Source: Candidatus Hydrogenedentota bacterium (GTDB lineage: Bacteria; Hydrogenedentota; Hydrogenedentia; Hydrogenedentales; CAITNO01). Taken from it: DNA of 38,875 bases. Numbering within the stretch: the stretch's first letter is position 1; each line of letters opens with the position of its first letter. Position numbers and translations under genes: made by a program. This document shows positions 3,201-22,110 of this stretch, piece by piece. The notes beneath the pieces were generated by a model, which had not been told where the DNA came from, did not search any database, and saw only the letters and a program-made list of their open reading frames with translations. The stretch lies in NCBI GenBank assembly GCA_012730105.1, contig JAAYBJ010000233.1:1-38875 (forward strand), read 5' to 3'.

Positions 3201-4113
3201 GGCTCAGGCAACGCTGTTGCTGGGAGAATTGAAACCGTCGGCCGTATGGCTTAATGGAACGCGTGTAGAAGATCTGTCCGCGCCCGTCCAACTGGAAGAG
3301 GGCGGTAATCCGCTGTTGTTGCGGTATGACGGTGTGGGCAGGACCCACGCGGTGCTTCGATATGCCGATATGCCCGCGAATGGGACGGAGCATCCCCTTG
3401 CCATGTCCTGGTACGCTGATGAGAGCATTGTGCCCTTCGATGCCCAGCCGGAGAAATTGCGAACCGCAGGTTGGTACCGGTTCCTTTCGCCGCCGGGACT
3501 CCGCGCGATGACGCTGTGGGCCCACGGCGCCGTGCAGGCCTGGGCGGACGGCAAGCCTATGAGTGTTCAGGCGGGGGAGAGCCGCGCCGACGGCGCGACC
3601 CGGTATACCGCCCAGGTTCCTGAACCAGCGTTACCGGCGGTCAAGGTGGCTCTACGCGTGGAACAGGACCGTGGCTATTATGGCGGGGCGGTGATTCCCG
3701 AAGCGATCGAACTGGACTGCGGTCCCGGGCAAATGATGGCCGGGGACTGGTCCAAAAAAGGCGTTCTCGCCCAGTATTCCGGCGGGGCTTGGTATCGCCA
3801 AACGGTCACGCTGCCGGAGCGTAACGATGCGGCCCGGGTAGTGCTCGACTTGGGCGCTGTTTGCGCCACGGCGGAGGTGCGGGTGAACGGGCAAACCGCC
3901 GGGGTGCTGGTTACACCTCCTTGGAGCATGGATATTACCCGGCACGTGAAGCCGGGTGAAAACCGGCTGGAAATACTGGTGTATAACACCCTCGCCAATC
4001 ATTACACCACCATCCCCACCCGGTATGGCGGCGAGCCTGAATCCGGGCTGATAGGGCCGGTAACCATCAGCATTGTGGAACCGGTGTTGTTGTCGGAATC
4101 GGCAGGCACATAG
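271..4113 (+). CDS. Secreted GH106-like glycoside hydrolase (alpha-L-rhamnosidase family)
   Basis: A 1280-residue exported protein. The first ~22 residues (MSTLLLITMGVVSVTGATG) look like a signal peptide. The region from about residue 60 (EVPFWWWTGDPLDRERLLWQ, then GIPGVQINYAHD) has the look of the GH106 family, which removes alpha-L-rhamnose from plant or algal polysaccharides. The C-terminus (about 1160-1265) contains a jelly-roll, galactose-binding-like segment (AEVRVNGQTAGVLVTPPWSMDIT, then YNTLANHYTTIPTRYGG), as found at the end of GH106 and GH2-like proteins. The frame is open from 223, but the ATG at 271 directly starts the hydrophobic signal and has GGGG about 12 nt upstream, so 271 is preferred. 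The family call is by pattern only; I cannot point to the catalytic acids, and a related uncharacterised glycosidase family is possible. Confidence 0.8.
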   Translation: MSTLLLITMGVVSVTGATGEPQFCDPDRLAPPPPGSPGFPGTVVAGDLKEAFKNPPAGYGEVPFWWWTGDPLDRERLLWQIEQLHAMGIPGVQINYAHDVAMATYPAEPPIFSREWWDIWTWLAGECRKRGMGIGMSGYTIDWPGHDNLFYEIGITDGSLRGADLKHQEKRVKGGEDIEWTLPENTVALRAYRLIGDAVQPDADLDLLLRVKEGRLEWTPPEGEWLLVAVHVRSPERSVDPMNPASGRKVIERFFQPFAEHSPGDIAGALNYFFQDELTFGVDGWLWNDRFLEAFKERKGYDALPLLPGLFVDIGLQTPKLRLDYSDVMVALSEENYFRPIFDWHWERGLIYACDPGSRGLNPLEFGDYFRCTRWYTAPGHDTPGGKADLRKDKVSSSIAHLYKRPRVWLEGYHSLGWGAKPATIFDSSCRNFLYGASLLNLHGLYYTTHGSFWEWAPPCFHFRMPYWEHMAVFFKYFERISYLLTQGTHVCDVAIMYPVAALEAGMDGKESLENAFRIGTEMYLERGIDFDFMDFESLERAEVQDRQLQVSGEAYRVLILPAMRAVRHSTLMKALEFYKGGGVVICVGALPEASDRVGREGPELNAAVSTLFGLTAAEAQAGGTAVTQGNEAGGAGRFFSDAGQSQPVADFITETVQRDFVPEGAVQVLHRRIGDTDVYMTMGARQNEACFFRASGKVELWDPWNGSSTPVYTFTSVEGGTVVRMPKETGQPQFLVFQPSDGGMSVEQTDLDEVLDVRMENEGVVVSGIAKAAGEKTAAVRVGETAVAVRGVAADPAAPIALDGPWEFELKPTMDNRWGDFRLPAEQAMIGAEARRFRYREESESGCAWQTPELDESGWNEAGTSFGLRFWKLGPLPEDTDSGQVDTLLGALESVDPEAPVTVGGREYSWNPYAFSMRWGNEQDPGPQGWHGLKENVSDDFICLGKAEYKTVKYVYEKEDGGSRYYLWTSAWSSRKAQATLLLGELKPSAVWLNGTRVEDLSAPVQLEEGGNPLLLRYDGVGRTHAVLRYADMPANGTEHPLAMSWYADESIVPFDAQPEKLRTAGWYRFLSPPGLRAMTLWAHGAVQAWADGKPMSVQAGESRADGATRYTAQVPEPALPAVKVALRVEQDRGYYGGAVIPEAIELDCGPGQMMAGDWSKKGVLAQYSGGAWYRQTVTLPERNDAARVVLDLGAVCATAEVRVNGQTAGVLVTPPWSMDITRHVKPGENRLEILVYNTLANHYTTIPTRYGGEPESGLIGPVTISIVEPVLLSESAGT

Positions 4114-4118
4114 GAAAT

Positions 4119-4192
4119 ATGGGATGTATAGGACGAATGGGACCTATGGGACCGATGGCTTTTATCGGTCCTATCGGTCCTATAAGTCCTAT
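4119..4192. repeat. 9-nt-periodic inverted repeat (long imperfect hairpin)
   Basis: Four direct 9-mers (ATGGGATGT, ATAGGACGA, ATGGGACCT, ATGGGACCG; 4119-4154) are followed by a 7-nt loop (GGCTTTT, 4157-4163) and three inverted 9-mers (ATCGGTCCT, ATCGGTCCT, ATAAGTCCT). Arms 4128-4156 and 4164-4192 form a 29-bp imperfect stem with two G-U pairs and three mismatches. It lies between the convergent ends of the glycosidase (4113) and the Fe-S gene (4249). It may stop transcription from both sides, although no T-run follows it, so a different repeat-element origin is equally possible. Confidence 0.85.
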
Positions 4193-4248
4193 CAGCAGAT
4201 GGATATTCAACCGGTGAGATCGGGCTGCAGGCCTGTCCGTATGTTCTT

Positions 4249-4974
4249 CTACCCGATGAACAGTCCTTCCAGCCGCAGCTGGTAACCGTCCGGCACACGG
4301 TTAAGATAATTCAGAAGACCGCTGTGACGCCACTGCAGCATGCACATACGAGGTTGGAAAAAATACCGCATGCCGATGCGAAGTTCCACGCCCGTCTCGC
4401 GCACCAGCCCCTCATAGGCTTCGGCGATGTAATAGCCGATATCCTTGAAGCCTCTTCGGCGCGGGTCCAGCGGCCCGGTAACACACCAGGTGATCACGCC
4501 GGTGCGAGTGTCCACCGCGGTCGCCACGCCGCAATGGGTGATGGGGCAGCCGCAGGACATGCCCAGGGGCCGCCCAATCAGGATGTCGCCCACGGCAATG
4601 TCCAGTTCCCGGGTGAGCATCGGGTTGTGGGGAAGGATAATTTCGCGTGGGCCGGGATCCTCGGGGAAATGTTCAAGATAGAAATCGAATTCGCGCCCCA
4701 GGCTGTCCGTCCAGGCGCCGGCGGACGGGTTGTCGGGCGCCGCGCAACGGTTGGCGGAATGGGGGGGGCATTTCCCGCAGTGCGGGGACACCGGGGCGCT
4801 TTCGTGTGCCGCCGGCGGCGCGGTATCTTCGGACAGGTGAATACAGCGCTTGAGTAGTTCCGGATCTTTTTCCATCCGGGCCGCCAGTGCATCGCACGTG
4901 CGGAAGCCGCACGCGCCGCAGTCCAGCCCCGGGAGTTCGATTCGGTTCTCGTTCTGGTTCTTCGTGGTAGCCAT
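4249..4974 (-). CDS. 4Fe-4S protein of the Rrf2/ABC/GTPase cassette
   Basis: A 241-residue soluble protein. Residues 19-44 carry C-x2-C-x4-C-x16-C (DCGACGFRTC...C), the pattern of the small 4Fe-4S domain (PF04060) seen in the corrinoid Fe-S protein and RnfB. A second Cys set follows at about residues 70-85 (HCGKC...C) and a third near 150 (MSCGCPITHCG), inside a C-terminal domain of unknown function (about 120-240). I chose ATG 4974 because GAGGAG lies 7-8 nt upstream; the frame is open to 5064 but that part overlaps the upstream GTPase. The gene starts 2 nt after the GTPase stop codon (TAA), so the two are translationally coupled. The role is probably electron transfer or metallocentre handling with the GTPase and ATPase; this is inference from motifs and operon. 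Confidence 0.75.
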   Translation of the reverse strand: MATTKNQNENRIELPGLDCGACGFRTCDALAARMEKDPELLKRCIHLSEDTAPPAAHESAPVSPHCGKCPPHSANRCAAPDNPSAGAWTDSLGREFDFYLEHFPEDPGPREIILPHNPMLTRELDIAVGDILIGRPLGMSCGCPITHCGVATAVDTRTGVITWCVTGPLDPRRRGFKDIGYYIAEAYEGLVRETGVELRIGMRYFFQPRMCMLQWRHSGLLNYLNRVPDGYQLRLEGLFIG

Positions 4975-4976
4975 GG

Positions 4977-5678
4977 TTATTCTCCTCGGTAGAAGTTCTG
5001 GTTGTCCAGGGCGCGCACAACACCGAAATGGGACTGCCAGCCGATTTCTTTTTTGCCCACGCATATTGTGCAGGTGCCGACTGGGGGATTGCCGCGTAGC
5101 AGCAGGCGCTCCGGTGCGTCGGGCGCCTCGACGACAAGGTCAACGAGCGGGTCTATGCCGATACCGTACAGGGCGTTCACTTCCCTGACGCGCACATTCG
5201 GCGCGGCTTCCAGGATGCGTGCACGGAACACCTCGCGCTCCGCTTGGGATACCAGATCTATCTTGGTTACCACCGCAATGTCGGCCAATGAAAGCATCGG
5301 TCCAACTTTCCTGGGCAGGTTCATGCCGCTGGTGGCCTCCATGACCATGATCCCAAGGCCGCCATCAACATAGGGCGCGCAACGCAGGCATAGGCCGGCG
5401 GTCTCGACAATCAGGATGTCAGCGCCGGAATTCCCCGCCCATTTCATGGCATCGCCCAGCACAAGCACGCTGCAGTGATCAGGGCATAACTCGCCGGAAT
5501 AAACCTTGCGTGTCGGCATCGAAAATTCACGCGCGAAAACTTCGTCTTCATCCGCATATTGGACATCTATTTTTAGAAAGGCCAACTTGTTGCCGGCGGC
5601 GACAAGTTTTCGCGTCATTTGCCGCAGTACGGAGGTTTTGCCCGTGGTGGCGGATCCCGCGCAAATTACAAGTTTCAT
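4977..5678 (-). CDS. HypB/CobW-like P-loop GTPase with three Cys pairs
   Basis: A 233-residue SIMIBI-type NTPase. The Walker A motif is at residues 8-16 (GSATTGKTS), a switch-like ETAG lies in the middle, and VVTKID (about 134-139) supplies the guanine-specificity NKxD-type motif. Family relatives deliver nickel, cobalt or other metal cofactors to enzymes. Three cysteine pairs are visible: CPDHC, CLRC and a late CTIC, which would suit transient metal or Fe-S binding. The start ATG (5678) overlaps the TGA of the ABC ATPase by 4 nt (ATGA), and its own stop is 2 nt before the Fe-S protein. It may act as a metallochaperone or activation GTPase for an enzyme encoded elsewhere; the client is unknown. 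It is not a complete HypB: the N-terminal His-rich stretch is absent. Confidence 0.8.
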   Translation of the reverse strand: MKLVICAGSATTGKTSVLRQMTRKLVAAGNKLAFLKIDVQYADEDEVFAREFSMPTRKVYSGELCPDHCSVLVLGDAMKWAGNSGADILIVETAGLCLRCAPYVDGGLGIMVMEATSGMNLPRKVGPMLSLADIAVVTKIDLVSQAEREVFRARILEAAPNVRVREVNALYGIGIDPLVDLVVEAPDAPERLLLRGNPPVGTCTICVGKKEIGWQSHFGVVRALDNQNFYRGE

Positions 5679-6493
5679 TGATATGCCGCCTCCCCTTCGG
5701 TTGTGAAAGACACCAGGTCCTTGAAATCAGCTTTTCCTAAACGGCCGCCAAGACGAATCGTTTCGCGCAACCGGGAAAGTGCGTCATCCAGACTGCTGAC
5801 CGTTGCGGCAAATTTGTGTTCGGCCGCGTCGGTATGAATGACCTTGGTAATGCCGCCTCCCTGCATTACAATGCGGAAGTCGGACAAGAGGGCGATGCGT
5901 GGATCGTGTGTTACAAAAATAAATATCTTCCGGTGCCGCCGCAGCAATTCCAGCGCGCGGGTCCTGTGAATGCCCGCGTTTTCCACTTCATCCAGGAGCA
6001 CAATGGGTGTGTCACATACGATGGTGGCGTCCGCAATGAGCAGCGCACGGGTCTGGCCGCCGGAAAGTTCTGTCATGCGGCTCTCGGGAATGATGGGCTC
6101 GCCCGTCAATTGGTTGGCGAAGGCCAGGGTGCGCGCTACAAGAGAATCCACTTGAGAACCATCCATGCTCCGGATATGGGCATGGGTGCTTAAGAAAACG
6201 CACACTGGCAAGTCTGAAAGAAAATTCGTGTGTTGCGTGATTAGCGCAATCGGATTTCGCGCGGGATCTTCCCTGTATACAGCGGGAGGTCGCTCGCCAT
6301 TGATTAGTATGCGCCGCCCCGTGGGGGTGTCGCCGTCCGCGAAAAGTTCTATGTCGTTGATGAGCGTTGTCTTTCCAGAACCCGTCGGGCCGACAATGCT
6401 GACGACATCGCCCATCTGCAGGTCGATCCTGCGCACTTCCTCCTCGGCGTTTGCCTTTCCCCGCCCCCCGAGAATCGTAATGGTCTTGATCAT
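5675..6493 (-). CDS. Soluble ABC-type ATPase
   Basis: A 272-residue ABC ATPase without membrane segments. Walker A is at 35-43 (GPTGSGKTT), Q-loop Gln at about 87, signature LSGGQ at 143-147, Walker B at 163-169 (PIVLLDE) and the H-loop in FVTHD near 196. No permease gene is adjacent, which argues against a transporter and for a soluble ATP-driven remodelling or activation role, as in ABC-fold accessory proteins. The Walker B is followed by VENAGI rather than the usual PTSALD. The ATG has AAAGGAC about 7 nt upstream. The end overlaps the GTPase start by 4 nt, so ATPase and GTPase are made together. The substrate or partner is not evident. Confidence 0.85.
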   Translation of the reverse strand: MIKTITILGGRGKANAEEEVRRIDLQMGDVVSIVGPTGSGKTTLINDIELFADGDTPTGRRILINGERPPAVYREDPARNPIALITQHTNFLSDLPVCVFLSTHAHIRSMDGSQVDSLVARTLAFANQLTGEPIIPESRMTELSGGQTRALLIADATIVCDTPIVLLDEVENAGIHRTRALELLRRHRKIFIFVTHDPRIALLSDFRIVMQGGGITKVIHTDAAEHKFAATVSSLDDALSRLRETIRLGGRLGKADFKDLVSFTTEGEAAYQ

Positions 6494-6515
6494 AGTTGTC
6501 CTTTCTGATTAGATA

Positions 6516-6528
6516 GATTTACCAAATC
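6516..6528. promoter_or_regulatory. Possible Rrf2 operator (palindrome GATTT-ACC-AAATC)
   Basis: A perfect 5-bp inverted repeat with a 3-nt spacer lies in the 67-nt AT-rich gap between the rrf2-like gene and the ABC ATPase. Rrf2 proteins bind short palindromes close to their own operon, so this is a plausible but unproven site. The length is short enough to arise by chance. Confidence 0.3.
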
Positions 6529-6560
6529 ATTTAAGTCTGTTATGCTCACAAAAAAAATAC

Positions 6561-6962
6561 TTACATTACATCGGCCAAAGTGGTGTCTTCCAGTTTGTAC
6601 GCCACATAATCCCGGATTTCACGAAATACATCCAACAGTTTCTCTTCCCGCTCGATAGGGGTGGATTCATAGAAATAGGTGCTGACGGATTCGGTGGGGG
6701 CGAGGGCGCCGTCCAGGAGGCGCACAATTTCGGCCAGTGAAATTTCGTCCGGCTTTTTGGCGAGCAGGTAACCGCCGCGCTGGCCTTTCGCGCTGTGAAC
6801 GTAACGGGCCCGTTTCAAGGCCAGGAGAATTTGCTGAAGAAATTTTGGCGGTATTCCCTGTTCCTGGGCGATTACCTCGCCGCTGACCGGTTCATCGCCC
6901 TCATGCCTGGCCAGGAACAGGAGGGCGAGTAGGGCATATTCACTTCTTGTAGTTAATTTCAT
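6561..6962 (-). CDS. Rrf2-family transcriptional regulator lacking Fe-S cysteines
   Basis: A 133-residue winged-helix regulator. The N-terminus MKLTTRSEYALLALLFLA, the IPPKFLQQIL recognition segment and the KGQRGGYLL wing (residues 1-75) are typical of Rrf2. IscR and NsrR members use three cysteines in the 90-105 region to hold an Fe-S cluster; this protein has no cysteine at all, with FYESTPIEREEKLLDVF occupying that stretch. It therefore probably senses something else or works through protein contact. It lies first in the operon, 67 nt ahead of the ABC ATPase, on the same strand, and is the obvious candidate regulator of the cassette. The Shine-Dalgarno is weak. Confidence 0.85.
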   Translation of the reverse strand: MKLTTRSEYALLALLFLARHEGDEPVSGEVIAQEQGIPPKFLQQILLALKRARYVHSAKGQRGGYLLAKKPDEISLAEIVRLLDGALAPTESVSTYFYESTPIEREEKLLDVFREIRDYVAYKLEDTTLADVM

Positions 6963-7099
6963 CGGGCGTCATTCCAGACTTATACTATCGACAAAGTAGC
7001 ATAGACGCGCAGGAAAATGCAACTTTACGCACCACACAAATGTCACTCACGGTGTCAAAGACAGCGTGCTTATCTTCAAAATCTGTTTATGTTCATTAC

Positions 7100-10000
7100 C
7101 TAACGCTGTCGGTTGGTGGACATTGATGCGGTCAGCACCAGCAATGCCGCCCCCAAAACCAGCAGGTCGCCCAGGCGCCGACGGATGCCCTCGGGAGTCA
7201 GAAGATCCTTGTTATTTTCCGCGGTGCCACAACAGCATTCGGGTTCTTCTTCGCCTTCGGGGGCTTCGCCTTCCCCTTCTTCGGGTTCTCCGTCGGTCTG
7301 TTCTCCTTCCTGCTCCCCTTCAGAAGGTTCTTCGCCCTCGCCCTCGGTGATTTCTCCCTCGACCGAATTGTCTTCAACGACGATCAGCCCGGCTGTCCAG
7401 TCGTCGTCCTTCAGTTCATCGGCGGATAAGGGAATGGTGTCTTTGAAATCCTGCACGGCATCAGCATTGTTCACCGTTGCCGTATTGTGGACCCAGACGG
7501 TATAGGTTCCCGCTTCTGTCGGCGCTGTAAGCGTGGCGCTGCCTGTCCATGTGATCATTGCTGTTCCCGGCGTGCCGCTCTTGACTACCACCGGTTCGCC
7601 GCCGGTCCAAGCGCCCGATGCATCCCGCAGGCCTATGGTAATCTTGACCGTTTCACCGGCGGCTGATCCATGGTATTTTCCGCTTAATCCGCTTAACTTT
7701 ATCTCGCTCCCCGGCTGGAGGGGATTGGGCGGTGTTGTACAGGCATCCAGCCTTATCCCGTAAATTCGGGCCACGGTCAGCACCGTATCCCACAGGGCAT
7801 CCCGTGTCCCATCCACCGGGATGGCCTTTTGAAAATCCTGTCTGGCGTCGTTATCAATAGTCGTCTGGGTAGCCCGCGCCCAGACATGGTAGTCGCCTTC
7901 CACTGTTGGGGCGTTGACAGTAGTATTTCCGGACCAGGGTTGCCAGGCGGTGCCCGGCTTGCCGGTGTAGACTACTTTCGGATCTCCGCCGGTCCAGATG
8001 CCTTCCGTGTTCCGGAACCCAACGGCTATTTTTACCGTTTCATTTATGGCCCCCGCGTGATACTGGCCTTTCAGTGCGCCCAGTTCCACCGGTTGGCCGG
8101 GATTTACCGGATTGGGAGCGAGGGCGCACGAGCCCAGGGTTACCCCGCAGTCTGAACCTTCCCCTTCTTCGGTTTCCCCTTCAACCTCTTCCCCTTCTAT
8201 CGGGTCTCCTTCTACAAAGATCGGGGCGTCCCATCTGGCATCCGTTCTCTCATTGCTGGTTGAAGGATGCGCATTCTTAAAGTCTTGGATAACTAGATCC
8301 CGGCTGCCCACGTTCAGGGTGCTGCGCACCCAGACATAATAGGTGCCTGTTTCTGACGGCGCTGTGATCTGGGCATTCCCGGACCAGGGCTGCCAGGTCA
8401 CGCCGGGGATGCTGCTTATGACTATTTGCGGCTCACCTCCAGCCCAGTTGCCGGAAGCATCCCTGAAGCCCACGGAGAGCTTAATCAGATCATCCGGGGC
8501 TTTACCATGAAATTCGCCGCCTAGATCGCTCAAGATAATGCGCTGATTGGGCCTTGCCGGATTCGGCGTGGGTGCGCAGGTTTTTATGTTGACTCCGGGA
8601 TACTCCGATATAGGCACTTGCAGCAGATGTTCCGATACAATGCCGAAATCGGGAAGAGACGCCATATTGACAATGTCGCCAGTGGCAGCCACTTTCACCT
8701 TGTAGGTGAACACCATCGTTTCACCGCGCCCAAGCAGGGGGACGATGTATCCGGCATCATCCAGAGGGAATGCCGTTTCGCCGTCGTTATCCGTGATTGG
8801 AATACCGTTTACCGCCGTGCTGTTTTCCTGGTAGGTGAGTTCCGACGGCAAGGCGTCGTTTACCTTGAGGTTCGGAAATTCGATGAGTCCGTTATTGTAA
8901 AGGGCAATGCTGTATTCCATGATGTCATCCACGCTCAATCCCGTATCGCTATAGTCTTCACTGAGCGTGCTGCTTTTCTGGATGGTGGCGAGGGGGGAGG
9001 GCAGCACGGTTGTCCCCATGTCCAGGTAGGGATTGTCGGTTCCGGCAACTGCGGGATCCTGTCCCCATGCCGCCGCAAACAAGGTTGTATCAAGAGTGTA
9101 CACGCGCATGGCCGTCTGATCCTTGTCCGGGTCATACAGGGTCTTGGATTCATAGGCGGATACCTGGTATTCAACATCGTAGCGGTCTCCCCGTGTGTCG
9201 ATATGCGCTCCCGCGCCGTCGCCGTTGTAGTCCACGTAAAGTGTGGTGTCTTCTATCGGGGACACAAACACCGGACTTCCGTTTACGGTCAGATCGCTGC
9301 TGCCAGGTCCCCAGCCTACGGCAGCCTCTGTGGTCAGGGCGTTTTCCGGCACCAACGTGAATCCCCAGTCATACCCGTTATTATGATCTGCTCGTGCGCC
9401 GACCGTACTCAGGGCGGTAAAGACCTCTTCGCCGGCGCTTTCAAGGCGCGCGCCTGAGGTGACAGGCACCAGCCATGGATAAACGGAATTGCCGTTTACG
9501 GGAAAACTACCTGTGCCGAGGCGGGTGGTTGTATTTATTGTAATGGTGAAAGAGTTCGGATTATAGACGAACACATAGCAATCAGAGCCGTTGGAGGACG
9601 TCCCCACAGGCGTTAAATAACTGCTATGCCATTGTTCAAAGGGGAACAGGGTATACCACCGGGATTCGAAGTTGGCGTTGATGTCTCCCGTTATCAGGTG
9701 TGCCTGCACCGGCAGTGACGCGCGGACGGTGGCGCCCTTGAGGATCCCCCCGTTGACATGGTAGGAGTCTCCCCGATTAAGCACGACGGTAACCGGGTCG
9801 TTCGGGCCGTTCCCGTCCCTGTCGATTGTCACTGCGGTGTTATTATTTCCGGCCATGACAAAGAGGCCGACATATTCGAACATATAATTCGCGCTGACGT
9901 TTTCACCCACGGGGCAGATGAAATAGGAGCCGTGGTCCATCTTGGGAGTTACTTCCACTGCCCCGGCCAGCATGGGTCCCGGATCCTGCGCCCACATGGC

Positions 10001-10474
10001 GCGTGTGACCGCAATCGCAGTGGTGGCGCCTACCCGGTCACGGCCGTCATAGAATAAATTTGTGTTGCGCGGGATTTGGATCAGGTTGCGCAAACTGATG
10101 ACGGCGCCCTTCGACAGGCCGGTGGGGTCGTTGGTAAAGCCGGGCGGCGTGCCGTTTGCGTTATTCCCGTCACCCCATATCTGGGTGCTGCCCTGGGTCG
10201 GGTTGTTGAGATCGGTCTCATAGCCGTCTTCCCAGTGATCGTAATGAATTACCGTGCCGCCGCCGTAAACTACAAGGGAAGTTACTGTATCCATAATTGA
10301 ACCGAGCATCGGCGCCAGGACGGATAAGGATGCGTGTACCTGGGCTTCAGGCAGAGGCATGTAAAACTCATGAACCATGAAAACGCCGTGTGCGGAAAAG
10401 GAAACCAACAACAGAATCACTACCCGCAATATACCCGAAAACAACCGAAACGTAGCAAGAGTTTTTACCTTCAT
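7100..10474 (-). CDS. Giant exported EGE-linker protein with DUF11-like domain and three tandem repeats
   Basis: A 1124-residue surface protein. Residues 1-30 form a signal peptide. About 35-480 resembles the IgGFc-binding-protein N-terminal domain (YFICPVGENVSANYMFEY..., SLPVQAHLITGD...). About 490-620 is a DUF11-like adhesin domain (YSIALYNNGLIEFPNLKVNDALPSEL). Three related ~120-residue units follow at about 633-755, 780-900 and 910-1033, each with PNPxxPxQxxxLxxLxGxxH, a V/IGxRDASGxWxGGEP-type core and a C-terminal DFK segment. An acidic EGE tract (about 1035-1078) leads to ECCCG, a short spacer and a hydrophobic segment (LGDLLVLGAALLVLTASM) ending in basic residues, which looks like a C-terminal sorting signal. 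The ATG has GGGAG about 7 nt upstream. Function is unknown; adhesion or cell-surface display is inferred. Confidence 0.75.
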   Translation of the reverse strand: MKVKTLATFRLFSGILRVVILLLVSFSAHGVFMVHEFYMPLPEAQVHASLSVLAPMLGSIMDTVTSLVVYGGGTVIHYDHWEDGYETDLNNPTQGSTQIWGDGNNANGTPPGFTNDPTGLSKGAVISLRNLIQIPRNTNLFYDGRDRVGATTAIAVTRAMWAQDPGPMLAGAVEVTPKMDHGSYFICPVGENVSANYMFEYVGLFVMAGNNNTAVTIDRDGNGPNDPVTVVLNRGDSYHVNGGILKGATVRASLPVQAHLITGDINANFESRWYTLFPFEQWHSSYLTPVGTSSNGSDCYVFVYNPNSFTITINTTTRLGTGSFPVNGNSVYPWLVPVTSGARLESAGEEVFTALSTVGARADHNNGYDWGFTLVPENALTTEAAVGWGPGSSDLTVNGSPVFVSPIEDTTLYVDYNGDGAGAHIDTRGDRYDVEYQVSAYESKTLYDPDKDQTAMRVYTLDTTLFAAAWGQDPAVAGTDNPYLDMGTTVLPSPLATIQKSSTLSEDYSDTGLSVDDIMEYSIALYNNGLIEFPNLKVNDALPSELTYQENSTAVNGIPITDNDGETAFPLDDAGYIVPLLGRGETMVFTYKVKVAATGDIVNMASLPDFGIVSEHLLQVPISEYPGVNIKTCAPTPNPARPNQRIILSDLGGEFHGKAPDDLIKLSVGFRDASGNWAGGEPQIVISSIPGVTWQPWSGNAQITAPSETGTYYVWVRSTLNVGSRDLVIQDFKNAHPSTSNERTDARWDAPIFVEGDPIEGEEVEGETEEGEGSDCGVTLGSCALAPNPVNPGQPVELGALKGQYHAGAINETVKIAVGFRNTEGIWTGGDPKVVYTGKPGTAWQPWSGNTTVNAPTVEGDYHVWARATQTTIDNDARQDFQKAIPVDGTRDALWDTVLTVARIYGIRLDACTTPPNPLQPGSEIKLSGLSGKYHGSAAGETVKITIGLRDASGAWTGGEPVVVKSGTPGTAMITWTGSATLTAPTEAGTYTVWVHNTATVNNADAVQDFKDTIPLSADELKDDDWTAGLIVVEDNSVEGEITEGEGEEPSEGEQEGEQTDGEPEEGEGEAPEGEEEPECCCGTAENNKDLLTPEGIRRRLGDLLVLGAALLVLTASMSTNRQR

Positions 10475-10819: not shown

Positions 10820-11782
10820 TCAGACAACTTCCAACGTGGAGGGTGGTTTGGAGGCGATATTGTAAGTGACGCTGACTACCCCGGGCACCTTTCCGGTGAT
10901 TTCATTTGCCATGGCCGTGAGTAGGTCGAAGGATAGCGGTGTGGGTGACGCGGTGCGCGCGTCGACGCTTTCCCAGCACCGCACTTCAATCTGTAACCCG
11001 AAATCCCGCTTGCCGTCGCGCATGCCAGTTACCCGGTCTTCGTGCAGGATCGCCATGTACTGAAAAGCGCCGCTGTCTTTCAGGAAGCGCTCCGTGATGA
11101 CGGTTGCCTTCCTGACGGTTTCCACCCGTTCCGGCGTCACTTCGCCGATGATGCGTGCCGCAAGCGCTGGACCAGGGAAGGGGATGCGGTCAAACAGTTC
11201 CGCCGGAAGCCCCAGCGCTTTGCCCAGTTTCCGTACACCGTCCTTGCGCAGCTGAATCAGCGGTTCCAGGATGCGATACCCGAAGGCCTGCTGGGGATCA
11301 ATGCCTAGTTGTTCAAAAACGTTGTGCTGGCGTTTCACCCCGGCCACCGTTTCATCCACGTCGGTCAATATGGTCCCCTGCAGCAGGGTTTTTGCGCCGC
11401 TCTCTCTTACGATTTTGCCGAACACACTTTTGTAAAAGGTTTGTGTGATAGCCTCGCGCTTTTCTTCCGGATCCGTGATCCCTTTGAGGGCCGCGAAGAA
11501 TTCAGCCCGCGCGTCGATAATTTCCACCGTGACGCCCAAGGCTTTGAAAAATCCCACCACCTGCTCCGGCTCGCCTTCACGCATGATGCCGTTGTCGATG
11601 AACACCGTCCTGAGATGGTCGCCCAGGGCGCGATGGCCGAGCATGGTAACTGTCGAGGAATCCACGCCTCCCGATAACGCGTTGATGGTGGTGCCGTCCC
11701 CGACGATTTCTTTTATCTCACGGACCTTTTCTTCGATAAACTGACTGGTGTTCAAGTCCTGTGCCGTTATTTCTTGTATCAT
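10820..11782 (-). CDS. guaA: GMP synthase ATP-pyrophosphatase subunit, stand-alone
   Basis: A 320-residue protein matching the ATP-pyrophosphatase plus dimerisation portion of GMP synthetase, which aminates XMP to GMP. The PP-loop SGGVDSS is at residues 37-43; QGTILTDVDE, PFPGPALAARIIGEV and the terminal SKPPSTLEV correspond to conserved GuaA blocks. The class I glutamine amidotransferase domain that precedes this in most bacterial GuaA proteins is missing, as in the two-subunit archaeal enzyme. It is rather divergent: the usual SHHN near the XMP site reads RQHN and the terminal IEWE is LEVV. ATG 11782 was chosen because GAGGAG lies upstream; the frame continues to 11938 without family similarity. 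A separate glutaminase subunit would have to be encoded elsewhere. An alternative is a GuaA-like paralogue. Confidence 0.8.
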   Translation of the reverse strand: MIQEITAQDLNTSQFIEEKVREIKEIVGDGTTINALSGGVDSSTVTMLGHRALGDHLRTVFIDNGIMREGEPEQVVGFFKALGVTVEIIDARAEFFAALKGITDPEEKREAITQTFYKSVFGKIVRESGAKTLLQGTILTDVDETVAGVKRQHNVFEQLGIDPQQAFGYRILEPLIQLRKDGVRKLGKALGLPAELFDRIPFPGPALAARIIGEVTPERVETVRKATVITERFLKDSGAFQYMAILHEDRVTGMRDGKRDFGLQIEVRCWESVDARTASPTPLSFDLLTAMANEITGKVPGVVSVTYNIASKPPSTLEVV

Positions 11783-12076
11783 CCTTTTGCTCCTCTTTTG
11801 ATACCGTGCGCGGATTGCGTACTTTTTACGGCGTCCTGGTACCGTTGCCCGACCCGCCGGAACGGCAATAGTATCATACCCGCAAGTTCCACTGGAAATG
11901 ACCATAGCGGTTCGCCTGCGACGACGCTCAATTCTCACCGTTCCCGGGACTGGCCCGACATTCGCAGGTCGTATTACTCCCCGTTAGCGGAATTTGTTGC
12001 CCCGTTGAAACTGTTACTATTTTGCGTTGAGTCCGCATCCTTTAATCTGCACCAAGTAAAAAGTAAGGAGATGAAT
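11783..12076. other. Divergent intergenic region between guaA-like and rhodanese genes
   Basis: The frames of both neighbours run open into this 294-nt stretch, but neither part shows family similarity. It should hold both promoters. I saw only partial matches to -35/-10 pairs (for example TACTAT near 12018) and do not assign one. Confidence 0.4.
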
Positions 12077-12949
12077 ATGAGCATCGTGGCGATGGTAATG
12101 AGCGGCGTACTGACTGCGGTCGCCCCTTTGCTGGTGTCAACCGGAGATCTGGCCGAACTGAAAGAGGTATGTATTGTGGATGCCGGAAGTCCGGAAGACT
12201 TCGCGGCGGGTCACATTCCCAACGCGATCCATCTGCATGCGGATGTATTGTCGGAAACGCGTGGGAGCGTCAAGGGGCTGCTGAAGTCTCTTGAGCAACT
12301 CTATCAAATCGTGGGAGACGCGGGCGTGGATCCGCAAAAGCATGTTGTCGTATACGGCGACATGGCCAATCCTGAGAAACGGGTGCAGGCGACGCGGCTT
12401 TTCCTGGTCTTCCAGTACATAGGTTTCCCAAGGGTGTCCTTGTTGGACGGAGGCATTGGCAAATGGAAGAATGAGGGGCGTGAAATAGCGTCTGGTGAAG
12501 CGAAGGCCAATAAGGTGGCCATTCAGGGCCTTCAAGCGCGCCCCGAATTAATTGTCGGCCACGCGGAGGTGGCGGAGACACTGAAGGGTGACGAGAAAGT
12601 GGTGCTCGATATGCGTCCCGCAGCCTTTTATACCGGCGAGAAAATCAAGGACTATGTTACCCGGAAGGGCCATATCGTGGGCGCCGGCAACCTGCCCAAT
12701 GATGACTTGTTCACCGGACCTGATTTTGTGTTTAAATCCGTGGAGGAACTGGGCGAGGTTTATGGGCGGAAAGGTATCGACAAAGATACACCGCTTATCA
12801 CCTACTGTAACAGTGGCCAGGCCGCCACGGTGGGCTATTTTGGGGCTTTGCTGCTGGGTAACGATAGCACTGCCGTTTACGACGGGTCCATGGCGGAATG
12901 GTCCCAACTGAAAGATGCCCCCATATCCACAAAACCCGAACAGCCCTGA
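12077..12949 (+). CDS. Two-domain rhodanese-type sulfurtransferase
   Basis: A 290-residue tandem rhodanese (thiosulfate or 3-mercaptopyruvate sulfurtransferase type), transferring sulfane sulfur to a thiol acceptor. The first domain (about 17-140; LLVSTGDLAEL, VDAGSPEDFAAGHIPNAIHL, LLDGGIGKWKNEGR) is non-catalytic. The second (about 155-280) carries the active-site loop CNSGQAA with Cys at residue 244. Usual loops are CGSGVTA or CRKGVTA, so substrate preference cannot be read off. ATG 12077 has AAGGAG at 12065-12070, 6 nt upstream; an ATG at 12071 sits directly on that site. The first 15 residues are hydrophobic without basic residues; a weak membrane or export segment is possible. It is divergent from the guaA-like gene across a 294-nt gap. 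Confidence 0.9.
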   Translation: MSIVAMVMSGVLTAVAPLLVSTGDLAELKEVCIVDAGSPEDFAAGHIPNAIHLHADVLSETRGSVKGLLKSLEQLYQIVGDAGVDPQKHVVVYGDMANPEKRVQATRLFLVFQYIGFPRVSLLDGGIGKWKNEGREIASGEAKANKVAIQGLQARPELIVGHAEVAETLKGDEKVVLDMRPAAFYTGEKIKDYVTRKGHIVGAGNLPNDDLFTGPDFVFKSVEELGEVYGRKGIDKDTPLITYCNSGQAATVGYFGALLLGNDSTAVYDGSMAEWSQLKDAPISTKPEQP

Positions 12950-13099: not shown

Positions 13100-15445
13100 T
13101 TATAACTTTATCCTGCTTGTGATGGACACTACTGTCAGCAGGGTCAGGCCGATCAGAAGCCAATCCCCCAGCAAGGTTCCGCTTCCCTTGGTCGGCCGGC
13201 TGCAGCAGCCGCAGGTTTCTTCTTCGCCTTCCCCTTCAGAGGGTGTTTCTCCTTCTCCTTCAACGAGGTTCTCCCCTTCACCTTCAGCCGGGTTCTCGCC
13301 TTCGACGGGATTCTCGCCTTCGACGGGGCTTTCCCCTTCACCCTCAACTGGGTTCTCCCCTTCGACGGGATTTTCTCCTTCGACGGGGCTTTCCCCTTCA
13401 CCTTCAACTGGGCTTTCACCTTCCACAGGGCTTTCTCCCTCGCCTTCACCTTCAACGACCGTGCAGTCCAACTGACCCCTGATATCCCCATCGGGATAGT
13501 CGCTTGACGTCAGTTCGATATATAAACCGCCATCCAATAAAAGTTCAGCCTCGTGTAGGGACAGAATCAGTGTTGAAGTCACGGGGCTTGACGGGTTGCC
13601 AAGGTCAATAAGAACCGGGCCGTTTTCACCCGAAACCCCCTGATGGATCCGTGCAGATAGCGGGTTTTGAATGGTATGCGACACCGTAATAACCGCTTCA
13701 CGGGTTAAAGGATCCGCCTGTATCTCTACGGTGCCTGTACTTTGGGAAAGAGAGCCGGCCACCACTTCGCTCGCGTCCAATAGGCTGTTGCAGGCAAAGG
13801 GCGTATCATCGAGCATTTCTCCCGAGAGTCCGTAAAGTCCCTGTTTGTTAATCGTTAGGAGTACCAGTCCTTCGCGGTCAAGCACGGCAAAGTCCGGGAT
13901 ATCCTCCCACAGCCTGGTCGCGGGGTTGAAGAGCACGGGACGTACACAACCGGGGGTGAGCAGGGGCGATGCGGATACGGGCAGTTCCAATAAGGCTGGG
14001 GGGACGATATCAAGAGGCGCCTGCACATGAACGGCATGATAGACGGTATTCGCATCCACGCATGCTGTGCCCTGAGGCGCGGCGGCGATCTGGCTCGCAT
14101 CCGGAATGATTGGCACGTCAACGGCTTGAGGCAGCAAGAGCGCCAATGCGTCCGGCTCAATCACATCATTAAGGTTCAGGAAGGCCGTTATGCTTCCGCC
14201 GCCTTGAAGCTGCAACTGCGCGGGGACGGGATAGGAGGCGGGGTCAATCGTTTCTTCAAAATCCATCTCATCCAGAATCCACAGTTTTTCATCCATCTTG
14301 TCGGAGACAATTTTCACCTTTGGGCGATAGCGGCCCAGGCGTCCGCCGACGGGTTCCTGGTCCTGCCAGGACGCGGTAAAACATATCCAGACGCACTCTC
14401 CGGCGGGAATCGGTGCGGGGTCGGGGGCCTGTGTGTTGTTTACATTGTTGCCCTGGACTTTCTCAAACTCTATGGTGACTTCGACATCGTTGGGGCAGCG
14501 ATTGCAGACTCGCATGCAGAAACGCGCGCCTTCCTGGCCCAGCGGCACAACGCGGGGGAACCAGACAATCTCCACGTCATCACAGGGCTCTTCCCCTTCG
14601 GTCGTTTCTCCTTCGGTGCCTCCCTCGCCCTCCCCTTCGCCTTCCTCTTCCCCTTCACTTTCCCCCTCGCCTTCATCCGGTCCATTGCCGCCCCCTGGGG
14701 CGACACCTTTGCCGTAGCCCCTCCAGAAGTAATCTTCCGTTTCCCCTGTGGGAAAGCCGGGCGCCGGACCACTGCCGTCCCACCCATCCAGGCCAAAGTC
14801 TGACAGACTTAACGGCGCTTCTGCAACCGTTATGCGGAACCAGGTTTGATAAGCGAAGAGCAGTCCGTTACCCCAGCCGAAGGCCGGCAGCACGAACGCT
14901 TTCGTCTCACCCGGCAGGATATCGCCGGGCACCTGGATTGGATAATTTCTGACAACCCATTCCGGTACCTGCTGGCCGATAATGTCGGTGTATCGCTGCC
15001 ACTTGCCGTCCTGATTAAAGTCGGCAGCCAGATTGACGTATCTTGTTCCGCCTGCCGCACCAGAGGGAATGGTCACCTCAACGGTGACGTATGTCGGGAC
15101 GGGAATCTGGACCAAAAGAAAGAAAAAATTTCGGAACCCGTCATCAAAGGGATCGCGATTGATAACGCGTGCGGCGGATTCATCATCCACCCGGTTCCCG
15201 AGTAATTCCTGTGACAAATCCAGATGATAGGGTCCGCTACGACCTGGAAAGACAGTATTGACTGTCGGATTCAGGGTGGGATAATGGCCCGTTCCCTGGC
15301 CGAATTGGTTGATACCCGGAATGTCCGGTGCATCACCGTAATCACCTGTCTGTGCCAGCCCTGATGCCGTAACAAGAACGGTGACTGTAATCCAGGCACC
15401 TGCCAGGCATGGAGTGGCGACGCATGTTTTACTTTGGATTTTCAT
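13100..15445 (-). CDS. Exported EGE-linker protein with GEVED-like and CHRD domains
   Basis: A 781-residue surface protein. It has a signal peptide (about 1-33, ending ...SGLAQ). GDYGDAPD starts a GEVED-like beta domain (about 33-245, ending TEDYFW). A first acidic EGE tract (about 255-290) precedes a Cys-containing domain of unknown type. About 570-655 matches CHRD (TGTVEIQ..., ISARIHQG-like segment, SDYPDGDIRGQL). The C-terminus is a repetitive EGENPV/EGEGESPV tract (about 658-737), then CGCC, a spacer, LLGDWLLIGLTLLTVVSI and a basic end. ATG 15445 has GGAGG about 9 nt upstream; an upstream ATG at 15472 lacks a site. Architecture parallels the giant EGE gene at 7100, including the LGD motif before the membrane segment. 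Role: probably surface-anchored adhesin or matrix protein; substrate unknown. Confidence 0.8.
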   Translation of the reverse strand: MKIQSKTCVATPCLAGAWITVTVLVTASGLAQTGDYGDAPDIPGINQFGQGTGHYPTLNPTVNTVFPGRSGPYHLDLSQELLGNRVDDESAARVINRDPFDDGFRNFFFLLVQIPVPTYVTVEVTIPSGAAGGTRYVNLAADFNQDGKWQRYTDIIGQQVPEWVVRNYPIQVPGDILPGETKAFVLPAFGWGNGLLFAYQTWFRITVAEAPLSLSDFGLDGWDGSGPAPGFPTGETEDYFWRGYGKGVAPGGGNGPDEGEGESEGEEEGEGEGEGGTEGETTEGEEPCDDVEIVWFPRVVPLGQEGARFCMRVCNRCPNDVEVTIEFEKVQGNNVNNTQAPDPAPIPAGECVWICFTASWQDQEPVGGRLGRYRPKVKIVSDKMDEKLWILDEMDFEETIDPASYPVPAQLQLQGGGSITAFLNLNDVIEPDALALLLPQAVDVPIIPDASQIAAAPQGTACVDANTVYHAVHVQAPLDIVPPALLELPVSASPLLTPGCVRPVLFNPATRLWEDIPDFAVLDREGLVLLTINKQGLYGLSGEMLDDTPFACNSLLDASEVVAGSLSQSTGTVEIQADPLTREAVITVSHTIQNPLSARIHQGVSGENGPVLIDLGNPSSPVTSTLILSLHEAELLLDGGLYIELTSSDYPDGDIRGQLDCTVVEGEGEGESPVEGESPVEGEGESPVEGENPVEGENPVEGEGESPVEGENPVEGENPAEGEGENLVEGEGETPSEGEGEEETCGCCSRPTKGSGTLLGDWLLIGLTLLTVVSITSRIKL
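13235..13470 (-). repeat. Higher-order coding repeat (EGENPV / EGEGESPV units)
   Basis: The C-terminal linker is encoded by 18-nt and 24-nt units. The order EGEGESPV-EGENPV-EGENP(V/A), 60 nt, occurs twice in tandem, which suggests recent duplication by slippage or unequal crossing-over. It is in frame throughout. It is not a CRISPR array: no unique spacers separate the units. Confidence 0.85.
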
Positions 15446-15496
15446 TGTTTCGGCCTCCGTGGTTGGATTCAAGTGCGTTTATTGTAAACAAAATAA

Positions 15497-19964: not shown

Positions 19965-20798
19965 TTACGGCTTTTCGCCACGGGCAAGGCGCGCATTGAT
20001 TGCGTCTAGCAGCGGCGGCACATCCCAGATGCCATCCACGACATAGTGGGCGCCGGCCTGCGCCAGGCGCGTATAGGCGCGCGCGCGTTTGCGTTCGCGA
20101 ACGTCGGGTTCCAGCGCGGCGATCTCCGGCGCGTTCAAACCCACTTCATTGCCGGTCATGGCAAGACCGATGGTCCACATGCTCGCGTTGAGCCCTTCCA
20201 GGATGTCCGGGATGGTGTCGCCTATTTTCACATAGGCTTCCATGGGGTAAATCCCGAGGTTGATGGCGTTTTTCAGGCACATCCACGGGGCGGGTCGGCC
20301 TGCCGGCACTTCGGCCGCGCAGACGCTGGAATCCGGCACATACCCCCGGTCCGCCGCTTCCTTGTACAACAGGTCCATCATTTCCTGCGTGTAGCCCGTT
20401 GTGGAACCGATTTTCAGGCCCCGCTCGCGGAAATTGCCGCAGGCCTCCAGCGTGCCGGGGATCAGGTCGGCGTACTTGGCAAGCACCTTGAGCTGCGCGG
20501 GAACAAACTCAGCGAACATGCGGTCCACATCCTCTTCCGTGGGCGGCTTGCCGTGGACGGCGGTCCACCGCTCACGGACGCCGTCCTGCTGCGATATCTG
20601 GAGGATATGCACCCTCTTGTGCGCGCCCATGGGTTCACGGGCTTCCCCCATGGAAATCTCCACACCGAAGCGTTTATAAATCTCCACAAAAACTACCGCC
20701 GGGGCGTAGCAGCCGTAATCCATGGTCGTGCCCGCCCAGTCAAGCAATACCGCCTTGAGGGGACCGCGGTAACTGCGCTGAAAGTAGAACTCCATCAT
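19965..20798 (-). CDS. phnX: Phosphonoacetaldehyde hydrolase (phosphonatase)
   Basis: A 277-residue HAD-superfamily enzyme cleaving phosphonoacetaldehyde to acetaldehyde and phosphate. The nucleophile is Asp20 in DWAGTT, and Lys61 (EPMGAHKR) is the Schiff-base lysine; the 41-residue spacing equals that between the known Asp12 and Lys53 of the Bacillus enzyme. CAAEVPAGRPAPWM and VKIGDTIPDI are further family signatures. ATG 20798 has AGGAG 6 nt upstream. It starts 15 nt after phnW, so phnW-phnX form an operon for 2-aminoethylphosphonate use as phosphorus, carbon and nitrogen source. It converges on the flavoprotein gene. Confidence 0.96.
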   Translation of the reverse strand: MMEFYFQRSYRGPLKAVLLDWAGTTMDYGCYAPAVVFVEIYKRFGVEISMGEAREPMGAHKRVHILQISQQDGVRERWTAVHGKPPTEEDVDRMFAEFVPAQLKVLAKYADLIPGTLEACGNFRERGLKIGSTTGYTQEMMDLLYKEAADRGYVPDSSVCAAEVPAGRPAPWMCLKNAINLGIYPMEAYVKIGDTIPDILEGLNASMWTIGLAMTGNEVGLNAPEIAALEPDVRERKRARAYTRLAQAGAHYVVDGIWDVPPLLDAINARLARGEKP

Positions 20799-20813: not shown

Positions 20814-21935
20814 TTAAAGTTCAATATGCATCTCATCAAGCGTATCCCGAATCGCCGACAGCAGGGCCTGCATGTCCGGCTCAAAAATGCGTCCGATCGT
20901 GCCGATCCGGAAGCAGTCGGCGTTGCTTACCTTGCCCGGATAGATCACATATCCTTTATCATTCAGAAGTCTATAGAAGGCCTCGAAATCGAAGTTCGGA
21001 TGCTCGGGATACCGGAAGGAAGTAATGATGTAGCCCTGTTTATCCTCGTCCAGATAGGTCTGGAAGCCCAGTTTTTTCATGCCCTTGATCATCACGTCAT
21101 AGTTCGCGCGATAGCGGGTGGCGCGCCCTTCGACGCCGCCTTCCTCCTCGAGTTCTTTGAGCGCCTGCCGGAACGCAAGCAGGGCGTGCGTGGGTGGCGT
21201 GAATCTGAACTGGCCGTTCGATTCCAGACCCTCCCATTGCGCGTACAGGTCCAGGCTCATGCTCCGCGCAAGGCCTTTCGTCTTCATGAAAGGCTCCTTT
21301 CGCGCGATCGCGTAGGCGAAACCGGGCACACCCTCCACGCACTTGTTGGAGGAGGAGACAATGTAGTCAATCCGGCATTCCGTGACATTGACCGGCACCG
21401 CCCCGAAACTGCTCATGGCGTCCACAAAGAAGAGGCGCCCCTTTTCGTGCACCATAAGGCCGAGTTCGCGGATGGGATTGACAATGCCTGTGGTCGTTTC
21501 GCAATGGACCACGGCCACATGCGTTATCGACGGGTCCGCGTCCAGCGCCTCCGCAACGCAGCCGACTTGGGGGCATGCGTCCTCGGGAAACTCCAACGCG
21601 GCGCAGGCAACGCCCGCCGTCTTGCAGAGTTTTACCATACGGTGGCCGTAGGCCCCGTTGATGACGATGAGCACCTTACCGTCGCGCGGGATGGTCGACG
21701 TGAGCACCGCCTCCACGGCGAAGGTGCCGCTGCCCTGCATGGGAACGGCCACGTATTCCCCATTGGTCGCCCCGGCCAGCGCCAGGAGGCCGTCGCGAAT
21801 CTCCTGTATTACCTGAATGAACGCGAAATCGCGCGAACCCAGGTCCTTGAGCATGGCCTGTTTTACGGTTCTGCTGGTTGTGAGGGGGCCGGGGGTGAAC
21901 AGCGGTTTGTCTTTGGATTCCGGAACACTGCGCAT
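20814..21935 (-). CDS. phnW: 2-aminoethylphosphonate-pyruvate transaminase
   Basis: A 373-residue PLP enzyme (class V, subgroup IV fold) transferring the amino group of 2-aminoethylphosphonate to pyruvate, giving phosphonoacetaldehyde and alanine. LFTPGPLTTS at the start, HCETTTGIVNP and the PLP-binding Lys198 in SSSNKCVEGVPGF are diagnostic. ATG 21935 is preceded by GAGGA; the frame is open further to 22202 but overlaps the propeller gene and lacks similarity. Directly upstream of phnX and co-transcribed. No regulator (such as a GntR or LysR gene) sits next to it, and no clear promoter was found in the ~175 nt upstream. Confidence 0.96.
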   Translation of the reverse strand: MRSVPESKDKPLFTPGPLTTSRTVKQAMLKDLGSRDFAFIQVIQEIRDGLLALAGATNGEYVAVPMQGSGTFAVEAVLTSTIPRDGKVLIVINGAYGHRMVKLCKTAGVACAALEFPEDACPQVGCVAEALDADPSITHVAVVHCETTTGIVNPIRELGLMVHEKGRLFFVDAMSSFGAVPVNVTECRIDYIVSSSNKCVEGVPGFAYAIARKEPFMKTKGLARSMSLDLYAQWEGLESNGQFRFTPPTHALLAFRQALKELEEEGGVEGRATRYRANYDVMIKGMKKLGFQTYLDEDKQGYIITSFRYPEHPNFDFEAFYRLLNDKGYVIYPGKVSNADCFRIGTIGRIFEPDMQALLSAIRDTLDEMHIEL

Positions 21936-22110
21936 AGCACTTTCCTCTTTTTTGGTGCGGAAACGATCCCACTTATAAAAGGCTTCCTTCGGTGCAGGAT
22001 TATGGCACAGGAGGCCTTTGTAATGCGAAAGGACCAGGAGGCTGTCATCCTTGCCCAAGGAAGTGGCAGGTATCTTGCCGGAATTGCGGCGTGGGAAGGG
22101 TGCGCCGCCG

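Follow-up and report, generated by a model that had tools for sequence, protein, structure and literature searches.

A 38,875-nucleotide contig of Candidatus Hydrogenedentota bacterium (JAAYBJ010000233.1, hereafter the window) harbors a compact operon of four genes on the minus strand, coding for an Rrf2-family regulator (6561..6962, 133 aa), a lone ABC-type ATPase (5675..6493, 272 aa), a G3E-type GTPase (4977..5678, 233 aa) and a two-domain Fe-S protein (4249..4974, 241 aa). The window is contig 193 of a 5.6-Mb genome (G000) that is 98% complete. The ATPase and GTPase genes overlap by 4 nt (ATGA), 2 nt separate the GTPase and Fe-S genes, and 67 nt lie between the end of the Rrf2 gene and the ATPase gene; the genes, strand and spacings given in an earlier note on this DNA were all reproduced from the coordinates. 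The start of the Fe-S gene at position 4974 agrees with its orthologues, which a longer open reading frame does not. Pfam and NCBIfam name the four proteins at the domain level only and hold no specific family for the block of ATPase, GTPase and Fe-S genes. Literature searches found no paper describing the module, and a plasmid search returned no match.

The block is widespread. When 84,980 species genomes were scanned with the GTPase alignment, a search that detects only genomes with one of two exact peptide patterns and thus gives lower bounds, 71 loci were returned, most of them from metagenome-assembled genomes, with flanking genes called by a simple codon-usage method. These loci belong to Hydrogenedentota, Chloroflexota, Acidobacteriota, Planctomycetota, Pseudomonadota, Actinomycetota, Omnitrophota, Verrucomicrobiota, Myxococcota, Bacillota, Bdellovibrionota, Lentisphaerota, Delongbacteria, Melainabacteria, Thermodesulfobacteriota and two archaeal groups, and include the cultured Heliobacterium mobile, Rhodoblastus sphagnicola, Pararhodospirillum oryzae and Geotalea toluenoxydans. 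Wherever the contig permits the test, the ATPase gene is next to the GTPase gene (66/66 loci; upstream in 65, in the opposite order in L080) and is followed, after the GTPase gene, by the Fe-S gene (56/56). An Rrf2 gene lies upstream in 33 of 65 loci. The 4-nt overlap is common to many loci, and the gene order is kept across phyla at roughly 50-92% protein identity, which argues against a chance arrangement. Within any one group the block is rare: it is present in 4 of 150 genomes of the Chloroflexota class and in six of 60 related genomes, the order ATPase, GTPase, Fe-S protein being kept each time. Distance matrices correlate among the GTPase, the ATPase, the Fe-S protein and a NifS-type desulfurase described below, and phyla are intermixed in the GTPase tree, so that the genes are inherited as a unit, which was probably transferred horizontally between lineages. 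The earlier note had placed the three genes in one tight operon, and the gene order shows a real conserved unit; the two outcomes that it named as contrary, genes not conserved together and a role already assigned, were looked for and neither was found.

Proteins of the block and the Rrf2 operator

The GTPase matches cobW (PF02492, 41.9 bits against a cut-off of 20.7) and shows the P-loop, G3 motif with Glu, TKxD-type G4 motif and SIMIBI fold that define G3E GTPases, its ETAG and TKxD residues being invariant in a 59-row alignment. The best Foldseek matches of its model are the nickel metallochaperones UreG (2.6e-12) and HypB (1.2e-10). In an HMMER alignment, a CPDHC motif (residues 65-69, 5472..5486, minus strand) falls at the metal site represented by CPH in UreG and CH in HypB; C65, P66, D67 and H68 are invariant and C69 nearly so. 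The HypB/CobW likeness noticed earlier is therefore well founded in sequence, fold and metal site. However, the protein is only about 20% identical to UreG and HypB, scores far below their NCBIfam equivalog cut-offs (42.4/121.2 bits for hypB, 29.7/204.2 for ureG) and has additional invariant C97-x2-C100 and C203-x2-C206 motifs, which together with C65/C69 make up the three cysteine pairs that the earlier note had counted. The last pair lies in a C-terminal tail (4980..5081, minus strand) that is unfolded in the monomer model (pLDDT, the predicted local distance difference test, <50 for residues 200-233) despite high conservation, so that it likely binds a partner or metal and folds on it.

The Fe-S protein starts with a 4Fe-4S domain of the type found in corrinoid Fe-S protein and RnfB (FeS, PF04060, 36.4 bits; 4840..4935, minus strand) with the cluster motif C19-x2-C22-x4-C27-x16-C44, and weak matches to chains of both proteins were found. 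A variable linker joins it to a C-terminal beta-barrel (4252..4707, minus strand), modeled by AlphaFold2 with pLDDT mostly >80, which has no structural match in the PDB at E<0.001 and carries the group C141-G-C143-P-x2-H147-C148 and C211. In addition to the cluster, the earlier note had pointed to two further cysteine groups; the C-terminal group (C141, C143, H147, C148 and C211) is invariant in 54 orthologues, whereas a CxxC in the linker (66/69) is not conserved. Corrinoid Fe-S protein and RnfB thus share the N-terminal domain, whereas the window protein lacks a corrinoid-binding part and has a beta-barrel with CGCPxTHC of its own. MobB/FeS-domain proteins (PRK14494 models) similarly associate a P-loop NTPase with a PF04060 domain, and both the GTPase and the Fe-S protein match them weakly, but these are single fused proteins with a MobB-type NTPase and neither ABC ATPase nor NifS.

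The ATPase (ABC_tran, PF00005, 52.7 bits) possesses a complete set of motifs: Walker A GPTGSGKT, signature LSGGQ, Walker B LLDE and the H-loop His. The residues of these motifs and of the Q-loop are invariant in 55 orthologues. ABC proteins work as nucleotide-sandwich dimers, and given its invariant catalytic residues this ATPase should do so as well. As the earlier note had observed for the operon, no permease gene accompanies it, and none recurs in the 71 loci. Its 25 best NCBIfam matches are all transporter ATPases, far below cut-off, and SufC is not among them.

The regulator scores 117.6 bits with PF02082 and 119.4 bits with TIGR00738, above cut-off. It contains no cysteine and none is conserved in 22 orthologues; judging from its sequence, it is therefore not an IscR-type cluster sensor, a point that the earlier note had overlooked. 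It resembles CymR more than IscR, the CymR model NF047409 being its second-best NCBIfam match after the superfamily model (81.7/195 bits, below cut-off). CymR acts with CysK as a sensor of sulfur and cysteine. A predicted operator, TGCTACTTTGTCGATAGTATAA (6980..7001, minus strand), precedes the Rrf2 gene and reaches 13.7 bits with a palindromic matrix built from 71 upstream regions, the window's included, 53 of which contributed a site; the consensus is T-N2-(T/G)(A/C)CTA(A/T)-N4-(A/T)TAG(T/G)-N3-A. Over all loci, 64 predicted sites exceed 11.5 bits, most of them directly preceding the gene for Rrf2 or the ATPase, and shuffled sequence gives nine sites above 12 bits, the matrix having been trained on part of the same data. 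In ten whole genomes the exact pattern occurs almost solely at the block, with two other sites in or near unrelated genes, which argues for a dedicated regulator; a wider Rrf2 regulon was rejected. Another palindrome, ACTC(C/T)NATN(G/A)GAGT, was identified upstream of the ATPase gene in seven loci that lack Rrf2 (L042, L053, L054, L060, L066, L079 and L087); this ACTC-N6-GAGT-like element is probably the site of a different regulator.

A cysteine desulfurase partner and the sulfur neighborhood

A gene coding for a NifS-type cysteine desulfurase lies between the GTPase and Fe-S genes in 37 of 56 loci. The best model of these desulfurases is TIGR03402 (NifS, 462-495 bits, just under the equivalog cut-off of 530.75), and by sequence comparison they are a NifS-like clade of their own. 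The desulfurase gene directly follows the Fe-S gene in genome G016, as seen from two of its contigs, whose ends share 141 bp. The operon of the window has no desulfurase gene; the same genome encodes a module-type NifS on contig 245 (L142, 338-1501, minus strand), which is 64-69% identical to the closest module NifS proteins and scores 673 bits against the module NifS profile, as compared to 456 bits for the other NifS/IscS-like protein of the genome. This gene lies 1.8 kb from a cysteine synthase gene (CysK/CysM family, 3347-4252, plus strand) and 3.2 kb from mnmA (4729-5880, plus strand), with a BioF/Kbl-family gene in between. In 11 related genomes devoid of the block, no desulfurase exceeds 466 bits with the module profile. 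Co-occurrence of desulfurase and block across related genomes (2/7 positives) is suggestive and not significant. The earlier note had missed the desulfurase partner of the block and its sulfur-metabolism context.

To describe this context, 417 flanking genes were clustered without preselection and families present in at least 3 loci were retained; the figures are raw locus counts, not enrichments over matched random loci. Recurrent neighbors are CysK (10 loci), O-acetylhomoserine sulfhydrylase (OAHS)/cystathionine synthase (7), generic ABC ATPases (7), and MetX, MetW and a family-2 encapsulin shell (3 each). The identities of encapsulin, MetX and serine acetyltransferase were confirmed by NCBIfam, and those of the other neighbors were read from sequence. 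The loci with sulfur neighbors represent separate lineages, namely Chloroflexota, Omnitrophota, Actinomycetota, Pseudomonadota and Bacillota. The shell genes (of the family for which we take "major membrane protein I" to be an old name) lie beside the block in L071, L089 and L086, and the gene for a cysteine desulfurase cargo is also present in L071 and L089. L071, from P. oryzae, moreover harbors a complete NifB/NifH/NifDK-like cluster of methylthio-alkane-reductase type beside the block; these shell, cargo and Nif-like genes are at 96-2685 and 3068-7805 in L071, 3-3073 in L089 and 17991-18689 in L086. Two DK-like pairs and an OAHS gene are found near it in L069 from H. mobile. A rhodanese and a sulfite-oxidase-type protein are encoded near the block in L086, and substrate-binding proteins nearest to taurine and sulfonate models, below cut-offs, in L028 and L037. 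In Synechococcus, family-2 encapsulins with desulfurase cargo are part of the sulfur-starvation response (PMC8049743). Similarly, a desulfurase, "major membrane protein I" and serine acetyltransferase of the sulfonate locus of Rhodobacter capsulatus are induced together with a nitrogenase-like enzyme (PMC11423573), showing that such neighborhoods are sulfur-nutrition islands. We are highly confident that the module is real and linked to sulfur.

As a separate observation, the window encodes a protein with two rhodanese-domain matches (11777-12949, plus strand), a sulfur-transfer gene about 5 kb from the operon.

Possible function and alternatives

The sequences contain a conserved unit, a link to a cysteine desulfurase, a sulfur neighborhood, a dedicated operator and motifs for nucleotide and metal sites that are intact. 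Its components would donate sulfur and metal, provide an Fe-S protein rich in Cys and His and add a motor run on ATP, all controlled by a regulator associated with sulfur genes; most simply, they would make up a machine for the assembly or delivery of a metal-sulfur center. We consider it an even call that the block is such a machine, responsive to sulfur, driven by ATP and GTP, self-contained and horizontally mobile. The NifS-type desulfurase, whose gene belongs to the operon in most relatives but lies on another contig here, would supply persulfide sulfur, and the UreG/HypB-like GTPase would use its CPxHC site to carry the metal in. The role of scaffold or carrier would fall to the two-domain Fe-S protein, with electrons handled by its 4Fe-4S domain and the forming center held in its C-terminal domain, while a dimer of the soluble ATPase would drive the conformational step that assembles or frees the center. 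The Rrf2 repressor, which has no cysteines and probably senses the status of sulfur or cysteine, would govern this operon only. Sulfur transfer and its direction, the identity of the metal, the scaffold role, ATP-driven release, the effector and the recipient are steps that we infer. The energy-driven activation or insertion machine of the earlier note survives here as a conserved unit with a metal-chaperone-like GTPase, without the CO dehydrogenase and hydrogenase clients that it had suggested.

This logic recalls the SUF system, in which the ABC ATPase SufC drives a conformational step. SUF (SufBCD and SufS) likewise unites a soluble ABC ATPase, a cysteine desulfurase and an Rrf2-type regulator in one operon and leads from sulfur to a metal-sulfur center. 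However, the module has a G3E GTPase and a two-domain Fe-S protein in place of SufB/SufD, and its desulfurase is of the NifS and not the SufS type. Neither a SufBD-like gene (PF01458) among the recurrent neighbors in the 71 loci nor a U-type scaffold (IscU/NifU) recurring among the 417 clustered genes was found. Replacement of SUF is ruled out: full SufBD is encoded elsewhere in the genome in four of seven block-bearing Hydrogenedentota, and its presence is independent of the block, one genus (g1) having no full SufBD with or without it. Another permease-free ABC ATPase acting on a metallocenter is A2 of the methyl-coenzyme M reductase activation complex, but A2 carries its two ABC domains on a single polypeptide and has McrC and Mmp proteins as partners, and no GTPase is involved (PMC12176620).

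Several points weigh against the assembly or delivery of a metal-sulfur center. One locus in three has no desulfurase gene, and no product or client gene emerges from the analysis of the loci. The C-terminal domain has no relative in the PDB at the threshold given above that would betray a scaffold fold. The CysK neighbors could reflect merely a shared regulation by sulfur supply. Finally, the block is patchy (6/60 relatives, 4/150 genomes of the Chloroflexota class) and co-exists with SUF, so that it is not part of core Fe-S biogenesis.

Chief among the rivals is a system of enzymes for sulfur acquisition, in which the two NTPases would power the Fe-S protein to free sulfide or sulfane sulfur reductively from organic compounds or a store, for use by CysK and OAHS, with NifS in the same traffic. 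The neighbors fit this, as they use sulfide (CysK, OAHS) or store and scavenge sulfur (encapsulins carrying a desulfurase, clusters of methylthio-alkane-reductase type, binding proteins of sulfonate/taurine type), and a NIR_SIR protein is absent from 39 of 57 block-bearing genomes. This absence looked striking, but block-less relatives do not differ significantly (3/7 with the block versus 37/53 without in Hydrogenedentota; 1/9 block-bearing Chloroflexota versus 29/150 in their class), and replacement of sulfite reductase was rejected. Since, moreover, the single 4Fe-4S site is the sole oxidoreductase cofactor domain of the module, and assembly is the better match for a GTPase of metal-chaperone type and a cysteine desulfurase, we regard acquisition as unlikely. 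Somewhat less probable again is the activation of, or metal insertion into, one specific metalloenzyme encoded elsewhere, such as a corrinoid protein, CO dehydrogenase or hydrogenase. The metal site kept by the GTPase, the 4Fe-4S domain resembling that of corrinoid Fe-S protein and the precedent of A2 (PMC12176620) speak for it, but it leaves the CysK, OAHS and encapsulin neighbors unexplained, and no client gene recurs beside the block in the 71 loci, in line with the earlier remark that no client enzyme lies nearby. Clients were sought in the window's genome and 59 related genomes, seven of these 60 with the block and 53 without. Among the seven, none has a Prismane protein of CO dehydrogenase size, the matches being split or of hybrid-cluster-protein size, none has PF00148 nitrogenase-like proteins, and four lack NiFe hydrogenase, which excludes all three as obligate clients.

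Maturation of nitrogenase-like enzymes of the methylthio-alkane-reductase type might hold locally, considering the complete NifB/NifH/DK-like cluster adjoining the block in P. oryzae and the two DK-like pairs in H. mobile. As a general role it is refuted by the absence of PF00148 from all seven block-bearing Hydrogenedentota, and two related genomes have PF00148 proteins without the block; we give it very little credence. A link to mlp gene clusters, prompted by an MtaA/CmuA-like gene near L069, was also dismissed, the text of the corresponding paper mentioning no GTPase, ATPase or Rrf2 (PMC10418091). Least credible of all, to a degree that is nearly negligible, is the leftover of an ordinary ABC importer operon with unrelated genes: transporter ATPases are the best matches of the ATPase, though far below cut-off, but no permease gene recurs and the order with the GTPase and Fe-S genes is fixed across phyla.

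More tentatively, and with rather less than an even chance, the block may represent a new system for the biogenesis of metal-sulfur clusters that differs from ISC, SUF, NIF and the minimal SMS/MIS systems, combining a metal-chaperone GTPase, an ABC dimer and a two-domain Fe-S scaffold of new fold with cysteine sulfur and control by sulfur status, and spread horizontally through bacteria and archaea. To our knowledge, only a handful of machines make metal-sulfur centers. Such a system would allow genes that have domain-level annotation only in many environmental genomes to be named and assigned a role, and the five-gene set in cultured organisms would make a new area in the biology of sulfur and metal cofactors accessible to direct testing.

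Additional observations

Four adjacent PF00148 proteins are encoded by each of two Hydrogenedentota genomes, G009 (contig 37) and G014 (contig 740; L090, L091 and L093-L098 for the two), possibly representing nitrogenase-type clusters in this phylum. In the window, a gene coding for a protein with the GMP synthase C-terminal domain, without the amidotransferase part, is located at 10823-11938 (minus strand). Based on Pfam domains, a HAD-type hydrolase (19965-20798, minus strand) adjoins a class-V aminotransferase (20814-22202, minus strand), a pair resembling PhnX/PhnW and suggestive of aminoethylphosphonate breakdown. Finally, (EGE)n-rich stretches are present in proteins encoded at 7100-10474 and 13100-15472 (minus strand) and at 31180-32742 (plus strand); in the first two they lie just ahead of a Cys-rich motif (CCCG, CGCC) and a hydrophobic C-terminus, an arrangement that resembles a sorting tail.

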